DNA from: an uncultured beta proteobacterium
Lineage (GTDB): Bacteria > Pseudomonadota > Gammaproteobacteria > Burkholderiales > Burkholderiaceae_B
NCBI GenBank assembly: GCA_903821335.1
Contig: CAIJKV010000220.1
Coordinates: forward strand, 1 to 64,000
Direction: 5' to 3'
Length of the DNA stretch: 64,000 nucleotides
Each line of letters opens with the position of its first letter. Position 1 is the first letter of the stretch. Both the position numbers and the translations under genes were made by a program. The notes under the pieces are model-generated. The model made no database searches. It was given only the letters and a program-made list of their open reading frames with translations, and was not told the origin of the DNA. This document shows positions 17,772 to 19,547 of the stretch, one piece after another.

Positions 17772-19547
17772 GTGCGGGGTAGATTCTTTTTCATCGTGGG
17801 GCCGAGCGGGGCTGGCAAAGACAGCCTCATCGATGGTGCCCGGTCCCGTCTCTCGCCAGACGTGTTCGTCTTCGCGCGAAGAACGATCACGCGTCCTGCG
17901 GGCTCGCCCGGTGAAGACCACGACGCCTGCACAGAAGAACAATTCATCGCGCGCGAACAGCGAGGCGACTTCCTGGTGACCTGGCAGGCGCATGGCCTGC
18001 ATTATGGTCTGCCGGCCTCACTGGGCGATGATCTGGACGCCGGGCGCCATGTCATCGCCAACGGCTCACGCAGCATGGTGGCGGCGATGGCCGAACGTAT
18101 TCCCTCATTGGTTGTCCTTGAGGTCGCGGCACCGCCAGGCATCCTGCAACAGCGCCTGGCGATTCGCGGGCGTGAATCTGAAAGCGATGTCGCAGAGCGA
18201 CTCACCCGCACGGTCGAGCCCTACCCCGCGTATGTTCGCCTCCTTTGCGTCGTCAACGACCAGACACTCGGGATCGGCGTGTCACGCTTTGTGGCTGCGA
18301 TCCTGCACGAACTGCGTCACGCGTCGGGCTCCCGGCACGCACTGGTGCAAAAAATTGCTGGCTATCCGCTCCACGCCTCGCAGTACCAAACGTTGATCCG
18401 CGCGATGATCGACGGCGAGCACGAGGGTGCCGATCTTGAGGCCTTCTTGATCGCCTGCACTGAAAGTCTCAGCGATGACGAGATGGTCGCGATCGCACGT
18501 TGTCGCACCGAGATTCTGCCGCGTATTTCCTGGGGGCAACCCATGGTGGTCGACAAGCACTCGTTGGGTGGCATCCCGGGCAGTCGCGTCACCATGGTGG
18601 TCATCCCCATCGTGGCGGCCCACGGCTTGCTGATCCCCAAGACATCTTCACGGGCCATCACCTCCGCCGCCGGCACGGCCGACGCCATGGAGGTCCTGGC
18701 CCGCGTGGACTTGACCCCTGAGGAACTGCAACGGTGTGTGCGGCAGACAAACGCCTGCATCGCCTGGAACGGAAAGCTCAATCACTCGGTACTCGATGAC
18801 GTGATGAATGCCCTCACCCGTCCGCTTGGGCTTGACACCAGGCGGTGGTCCGTTGCGTCCATTCTGTCCAAGAAATATTCGGCCGGCGCGACGCACGTCG
18901 TCATCGACATTCCCTATTCGACCGCGGGCAAAGTCAAGACCCGCGAAGACGCGCAGGAACTTGCACGCCTGTTCGAAATGGTGGGCGAGAAACTCGGGAT
19001 GGTCGTCAAGGCTTTTGCCACCTACGGTGAATCACCGATCGGCCGCGGTATCGGGCCCGCGCTTGAAGCGCGCGATGTCCTTCAGGTTCTGGACAACCAT
19101 CCCGATGCCCCGCAGGACCTCCTTGAGAAGTCTCTGTTTTTCGCTAGTCAGATTTTGGCACTTGACGACAAGATCGCAAATGTCACGCGCGGCCGCGTGC
19201 GTGCGCAAGAACTCCTGTCGACGGGTGCCGCCCGCGAGGCACTCAACCGGATCGTGCAGGCACAGGGCGCACACCCGCCCGCAGACTTTTCCCGGGTGCA
19301 AACCCACGATGTGCTGGCACGTGAACCTGGCGTGGTCAAGCACATAGACGGGTGCGTGATCTCCGGTATTGCACGCGCCGCTGGCGCCCCACACGACGCC
19401 GTCGCGGGGGTTGACCTCATTGCCTCGGTTGGCGCGACGGTCAAGGTCGGCACGCCGTTGTTTCGCATTCAGGGCACCTTGGCCACGCGGCTTGAGCGGG
19501 CCGTCGCGCTCGCGCAGTCAAACGATGGCTATCGGATCTCAGACTAA
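17772..19547 (+). CDS. Fusion: N-terminal PhnN-like ribose 1,5-bisphosphokinase + C-terminal AMP phosphorylase/thymidine phosphorylase family domain
   Basis: N-term FFIVGPSGAGKDSLIDGAR (P-loop, PhnN-like); C-term VDKHSLGGIPGSRVTMVVIPIVAAHGLLIPKTSSRAITSAAGTADAMEVLA (AMPpase/TdRPase family). One uninterrupted 591-aa ORF. Confidence 0.88.
   Translation: MRGRFFFIVGPSGAGKDSLIDGARSRLSPDVFVFARRTITRPAGSPGEDHDACTEEQFIAREQRGDFLVTWQAHGLHYGLPASLGDDLDAGRHVIANGSRSMVAAMAERIPSLVVLEVAAPPGILQQRLAIRGRESESDVAERLTRTVEPYPAYVRLLCVVNDQTLGIGVSRFVAAILHELRHASGSRHALVQKIAGYPLHASQYQTLIRAMIDGEHEGADLEAFLIACTESLSDDEMVAIARCRTEILPRISWGQPMVVDKHSLGGIPGSRVTMVVIPIVAAHGLLIPKTSSRAITSAAGTADAMEVLARVDLTPEELQRCVRQTNACIAWNGKLNHSVLDDVMNALTRPLGLDTRRWSVASILSKKYSAGATHVVIDIPYSTAGKVKTREDAQELARLFEMVGEKLGMVVKAFATYGESPIGRGIGPALEARDVLQVLDNHPDAPQDLLEKSLFFASQILALDDKIANVTRGRVRAQELLSTGAAREALNRIVQAQGAHPPADFSRVQTHDVLAREPGVVKHIDGCVISGIARAAGAPHDAVAGVDLIASVGATVKVGTPLFRIQGTLATRLERAVALAQSNDGYRISD

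Follow-up and report, generated by a model that had tools for sequence, protein, structure and literature searches.

A PhnN–phosphorylase fusion encoded behind nadC: a candidate two-gene route from quinolinate to nicotinate with recycling of PRPP

Why would a bacterium fuse a ribose-1,5-bisphosphokinase to a nucleotide phosphorylase, and encode the product directly behind nadC, the gene for quinolinate phosphoribosyltransferase (QPRTase)? The question is raised by a gene at 17772..19547 (+) in a 64,000-nucleotide stretch (the window) of contig CAIJKV010000220.1, from the genome of an uncultured beta proteobacterium of the family Burkholderiaceae_B (GCA_903821335.1; G000 below). Our answer builds on gene structure, family membership, linkage, co-occurrence and base-site differences, all observed here. 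We propose, with moderate confidence in the catabolic cycle as a whole, that nadC and the fusion gene are a two-gene converter of quinolinate to nicotinate that recycles phosphoribosyl pyrophosphate (PRPP). The adjacency of nadC decides how the fusion is to be interpreted.

Domain structure of the fusion

The open reading frame is uninterrupted over its full length, is present in a single copy in G000, and encodes 591 amino acids from a GTG start 14 bases past the nadC stop. An earlier annotation from the letters of the window (the sequence-only reading) had described it as a PhnN-like kinase joined to a nucleotide phosphorylase domain. This description holds, since models TIGR02322 and PRK04350 both score above their cut-offs. 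The kinase domain occupies residues 1-180 (17772..18311, +), and TIGR02322, the NCBIfam model for PhnN, covers residues 3-177 with 173.1 bits against an equivalog cut-off of 156. The P-loop GPSGAGKD (residues 10-17; 17799..17822, +) and the DKHSLGGIPGSR loop read as quoted earlier. The P-loop is invariant in 23 of 23 aligned fusions, with K16 and D17 unchanged throughout. A dead kinase, foreseen as an objection, was rejected on the intact P-loop and the TIGR02322 score, as far as sequence can tell. PhnN-type activity, predicted as ribose-1,5-bisphosphate (R15P) + ATP -> PRPP + ADP, is therefore very likely for this domain.

The second domain spans residues 187-591 (18330..19544, +). Residues 185-589 belong to the PRK04350 'thymidine phosphorylase' subfamily, the whole protein scoring 530 bits against a cut-off of 434. 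It falls short of the AMP phosphorylase equivalog TIGR03327 (372 bits, cut-off 535) and lies far under the curated models for DeoA and PyNP (TIGR02643, 105 against 571; TIGR02644, 141 against 409). A DeoA-type enzyme was rejected on these cut-offs and on the loop sequence, and the related objection that the protein might be of a purely nucleoside type appears not to be borne out. The top PDB sequence matches are to the AMP phosphorylase of Thermococcus kodakarensis (4ga4/4ga5; E 2e-79, residues 191-589), which agrees with the earlier placement of the domain nearer to AMP phosphorylase than to DeoA. The same structure, 4ga4, is the nearest fold (target-normalised TM-score 0.88, 2.5 A, 413 columns). 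In a confident AlphaFold (AF2) model (pLDDT 88, pTM 0.83) a short linker joins the kinase, at about residues 1-181, to the phosphorylase domain. Family and fold thus make it likely that domain 2 is of the phosphorylase class that yields R15P. The earlier idea that R15P would be handed from the phosphorylase to the kinase domain to give PRPP is supported as well.

The archaeal enzyme (TK0352; 4ga4-4ga6) shares its fold and its PKTSSRAITSAAGTAD loop with the fusion, and R15P is presumably the product common to both. TK0352 has an 84-residue N-terminal domain that contributes to multimer formation (PMC8376864). In the 591-residue form of the fusion the PhnN kinase occupies this place, and fusion relatives of about 680 residues have an additional segment of about 87 residues at the corresponding position. 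In archaea R15P passes to R15P isomerase and RuBisCO or into other routes, whereas in the fusion it would be turned into PRPP. E. coli PhnN has in common with the fusion an above-cut-off TIGR02322 score and an intact P-loop; the fusion differs in carrying a phosphorylase, in sitting in a nadC operon and not a phn operon, and in occurring also in genomes without carbon-phosphorus (C-P) lyase.

The search of the domain architecture across genomes, recommended in the sequence-only reading, found the fusion in 23 of 32 genomes of the window's genus (the window and 22 others, two of them as contig-end partials only), on four named plasmids and in other orders. An assembly or frameshift artefact is ruled out by this recurrence. 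A search for related loci returned mostly stand-alone PhnN and one full fusion, in Bosea. All fusions in the phosphorylase tree fall into one clade inside PRK04350 (support 100/100). In public records (NZ_LR594669.1, NZ_CP033971.1, NZ_CP021405.1) fusions are annotated only as 'phosphonate metabolism protein/1,5-bisphosphokinase PhnN', which hides the phosphorylase domain. Our literature search found no description of the fusion or of its phosphorylase domain, although reviews on R15P or PRPP may mention it.

Linkage to nadC and an altered base site

The upstream gene, nadC (16927..17757, +; 276 residues), ends 14 bases before the fusion and is the sole nadC match in G000. Its product scores 321 bits with TIGR00078 (cut-off 198), matches QPRTases in the PDB and bears the catalytic-loop signature TRKTTPGLR..EKHAV..GGG.NHR..L.....LKDNHI, so that its predicted activity class can be given with high confidence.

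We compared the neighbourhoods of 29 fused loci, spread over alpha-, beta- and gammaproteobacteria, with those of 28 unfused homologues. nadC lies directly upstream at 23 of the 29 fused loci and beside none of the unfused homologues. The linked loci are 12 in the genus, that of the window among them, and those in Bosea, Variovorax, Cupriavidus, Paraburkholderia, Pacificitalea, G206, G254, G655, G886, G798 and G749; in C. pauculus a single marR gene separates nadC from the fusion. The fusion-linked NadCs form their own clade (98/95) against 11 other NadCs, and those of other genera of the window's family fall outside it. G206 and G886 have a second, distant nadC.

The unfused PRK04350 proteins ('thymidine phosphorylase family protein') are the parent family of the fusions. 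A Prs-like gene adjoins 26 of the 28, often together with an MBL-fold hydrolase gene, and nadC is never their direct neighbour. These pairs would be a second nucleoside monophosphate (NMP) phosphorylase gene set, for which we found no description. Some unfused copies are plasmid-borne, with heavy-metal efflux genes nearby.

Fused and unfused proteins also differ in the base site (residues 332-365; 18765..18866, +). Position 349 is Glu in all 28 unfused homologues and in the T. kodakarensis enzyme, and Thr, Val or Asn in 22 of 22 fusions. Leu338 is replaced by His and Ile346 by Asn in every aligned fusion, so that the window fusion has H, N and T where TK0352 and the unfused proteins have L, I and E. 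Gly333, the residue of the unfused homologues, is Asn in all nadC-linked fusions, including the window's, and variable in the nadC-less ones. S363 and K367 are kept and align with Ser186 and Lys190 of thymidine phosphorylase (TP), which we take from established knowledge to bind the base; in an alignment to E. coli TP, positions 349 and 346 correspond to Arg171 and Tyr168. The substrate and phosphate loops (residues 262-304, KHSLGGIPGSR ... PKTSSRAITSAAGTAD; 18555..18683, +) include what we assume, again from the TP family, to be the phosphate site. To accept a carboxylated base, nicotinate for example, the site would be expected to lose an acid and to gain polar groups, as is the case here.

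These data bear on the function put forward in the sequence-only reading, namely that the fusion is a general NMP phosphorylase-kinase converting AMP, CMP or UMP with Pi and ATP into base and PRPP, bypassing Prs. The nearest solved relative, the T. kodakarensis AMP phosphorylase, does accept all natural NMPs (PMC8376864), and such an activity may be the role of the six fusions that lack an adjoining nadC. It is nevertheless unlikely as the function of the fusion in general: base-site residues common to the 28 unfused homologues and the T. kodakarensis enzyme are changed in all fusions, the fusion is linked with nadC and nicotinate genes rather than with nucleotide salvage, and the window has a normal prs near 38059, as already noted in that reading. 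Its account of the domains, of the likeness to AMP phosphorylase, of the intact kinase and of the step from R15P to PRPP thus stands, while general NMP salvage is not supported; nadC upstream had gone unmentioned. We consider nicotinate mononucleotide (NaMN) fairly probable as the main substrate and likelier than AMP, CMP or UMP, because of the altered base site with its lost Glu and the ties to nadC, nicotinate degradation and quinolinate-type binding proteins.

Co-occurrence with nicotinate catabolism

Within the genus, enamidase, an enzyme of nicotinate catabolism, is found in all 23 fusion genomes and in none of the 9 others, the two sets of genomes being identical. The enzyme is securely identified by a full-length match to PDB 2vun (E 1e-110). 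6-Hydroxynicotinate reductase (Hnr), identified by annotation in public records, is distributed likewise in the 18 genomes of the genus tested for it, with an 84-residue fragment in G306 as the exception. nadC is confined to fusion genomes, and 9 of the 32 live without it; no nadC match was found in the fusion-bearing G317 and G324, whose contigs begin inside the operon. In a gmk and spoT marker tree of 20 genus genomes the module needs at least three changes, so that the pattern does not go back to one event. The co-occurrence is strong, yet the events are too few for statistical proof.

Outside the genus the link is often physical. In G254 the pair adjoins NicC (6-hydroxynicotinate 3-monooxygenase; PDB 5eow, E 1e-170) and NicA/NicB-like genes, and in C. 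pauculus a full nic set (NicF/X/D/E/C/A/B). In G655 it lies beside Hnr and enamidase, and in Bosea beside Hnr. In C. pauculus the pair also adjoins a TTT-type binding protein, which most resembles Bug27 (PDB 2qpq, 2e-107), and in other carriers a TAXI/TRAP transporter. Bug27 and Bug69 of Bordetella bind quinolinate with submicromolar affinity (PMC11452294).

The adjacency of nadC and phnN in Variovorax and Jezberella has been noted before and was read as PRPP supply to NadC in NAD metabolism (PMC11452294), a paper in which the word 'phosphorylase' does not occur. The nadC-phnN-bug27 locus reported there is very probably of the same type as the window locus, and in Variovorax SRS16 the locus of nadC, phnN and a TTT binding protein does consist of nadC and the PhnN-phosphorylase fusion. 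According to this published proposal, NadC would make NaMN for NAD, and the fusion would only supply PRPP from R15P of any origin. The genus offers some ground for it. nadA is missing from 26 of 26 genus genomes tested (G000 and 25 congeners; the search control was positive in 12 of 14 genomes). Synthesis of quinolinate from aspartate is therefore not expected, and quinolinate would be a useful NAD precursor. E. coli phnN has also been reported to have a role in NAD biosynthesis (Hove-Jensen 2003). As far as it is cited in PMC11452294, quinolinate salvage in Bordetella (Brickman 2017) is similar in that nadA-less relatives pass external quinolinate through NadC, but there nadC goes with nadQ and bug69, unlike the fusion-linked nadC. 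Salvage for NAD leaves unexplained why the kinase is fused to a phosphorylase that, by its type, would break NaMN down, why the base site is altered and why the fusion matches enamidase presence exactly. In addition, PncB is found in 18 of 18 genus genomes tested, so nicotinate is enough for NAD, and nine of the 32 genomes manage without nadC. We therefore regard this explanation as rather doubtful, and consider recycling of PRPP for NadC likelier than supply to a general pool.

Yet another possibility is a PhnN of the C-P lyase pathway fused by chance. G000 has the C-P lyase gene phnJ and no PhnN besides the fusion. Moreover, three congeners (G299, G301, G306) encode a stand-alone PhnN of 188 residues at the same site, between LivF and a thiamine pyrophosphate (TPP) enzyme; all three have phnJ, and none has nadC, the phosphorylase domain or enamidase. 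phnJ was, however, not found in the fusion-bearing G300, G302, G303, G304 and G655, which rules out C-P lyase as the general function. Both sets of genomes indicate that the phosphorylase domain tracks nadC and nicotinate genes, and that the kinase is of use with any source of R15P. A chance fusion is very improbable. The kinase domain may still serve phosphonate breakdown in C-P lyase genomes without another PhnN, and since G000 is of this kind, such a second role is likely there.

The proposed cycle and the window locus

In the proposed cycle, quinolinate would be imported and NadC would convert it (quinolinate + PRPP -> NaMN + CO2 + PPi), the phosphoribose on the ring nitrogen allowing the 2-carboxylate to leave. 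The phosphorylase domain would then release nicotinate (NaMN + Pi -> nicotinate + R15P), and the PhnN domain would restore PRPP (R15P + ATP -> PRPP + ADP) for the next round. The net reaction would be quinolinate + ATP + Pi -> nicotinate + CO2 + ADP + PPi. Phosphorolysis of NaMN is expected to be favourable, since its pyridinium glycosidic bond is energy-rich. PRPP, consumed and rebuilt at every turn, would be a recyclable covalent handle that renders the 2-carboxylate labile, a role we somewhat favour. Nicotinate could enter the 6-hydroxynicotinate reductase/enamidase route in the genus, the NicC/NicX route elsewhere, or NAD through PncB. We infer the catabolic direction, the channelling and the import of quinolinate.

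Several points weigh against this cycle, which is proposed from sequence and genome context. Six fused loci lack an adjoining nadC, which rules out that the fusion always goes with it. All six belong to the alphaproteobacterial genus g391 and lie beside petABC, and no nadC at all was found in the three g391 genomes searched. Nor is the linked clade of NadCs restricted to fusion loci: a NadC 58% identical to this clade is encoded on a Paracoccus plasmid that lacks the fusion. In the window, no nicotinate gene and no TTT or TRAP transporter adjoins the pair, and the enamidase and Hnr of G000 are on other contigs. The base-site argument stands on an alignment and not on a bound structure, and the binding measured for Bug27 is that of the Bordetella protein, not of the neighbours of these loci. 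Finally, PncB would rebuild NaMN, so that a futile cycle is possible.

The g391 genomes also lend some support to a different use of the same phosphorolysis, in which nicotinate and PRPP would be recovered from NaMN or NAD turnover, without imported quinolinate and with NadC as an incidental neighbour. The three genomes searched still keep 6-hydroxynicotinate reductase along with the fusion. This is improbable in view of the tight linkage of a dedicated NadC clade in three proteobacterial classes.

If quinolinate is indeed converted by the proposed PRPP-recycling pair, this would be a route to nicotinate for which we found no description in the literature and, as far as our searches reach, the first assigned role for a bacterial PRK04350-type phosphorylase. 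NadC, known from cofactor synthesis, would have been turned catabolic by recycling of its phosphoribosyl donor, and R15P would be an intermediate of bacterial pyridine degradation. A large bacterial family labelled thymidine phosphorylase would gain a function, and the database label of the fusions as PhnN would be corrected. The persistence of nadC in nadA-less bacteria would be explained, and quinolinate-binding Bug/TTT proteins near the pair would be assigned to growth on quinolinate instead of NAD supply.

nadC is preceded by a divergent tetR (16003-16707, -). The intergenic region (16708..16926, +) is, by its position, the probable promoter region; a sigma-70 scan gave no promoter match within it. 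Further upstream (2204-15196, +) lies a long catabolic cluster with 2-oxoacid dehydrogenase-like E1/E2, an acyl-CoA dehydrogenase, a LivKHMGF-type ABC transporter and two short-chain dehydrogenases/reductases (SDRs), which shows partial synteny with the fusion across the genus. Two contigs of G000 (C92 and C266) share the 6-hydroxynicotinate reductase gene between them, so the assembly is fragmented in the nicotinate region. A further catabolic use of NadC is possible on plasmids of Thalassospira and Sphingobium, where nadC (L300:7920-8801 and L301:7956-8819) adjoins genes for a Rieske oxygenase, a Gfo/Idh/MocA oxidoreductase and an ABC binding protein. Elsewhere in the window, at 24734-26704, a 656-residue protein carries an APH-type kinase domain C-terminal to its N-terminal half; its gene overlaps an enolase-like gene (26680-27975), an unusual pair.
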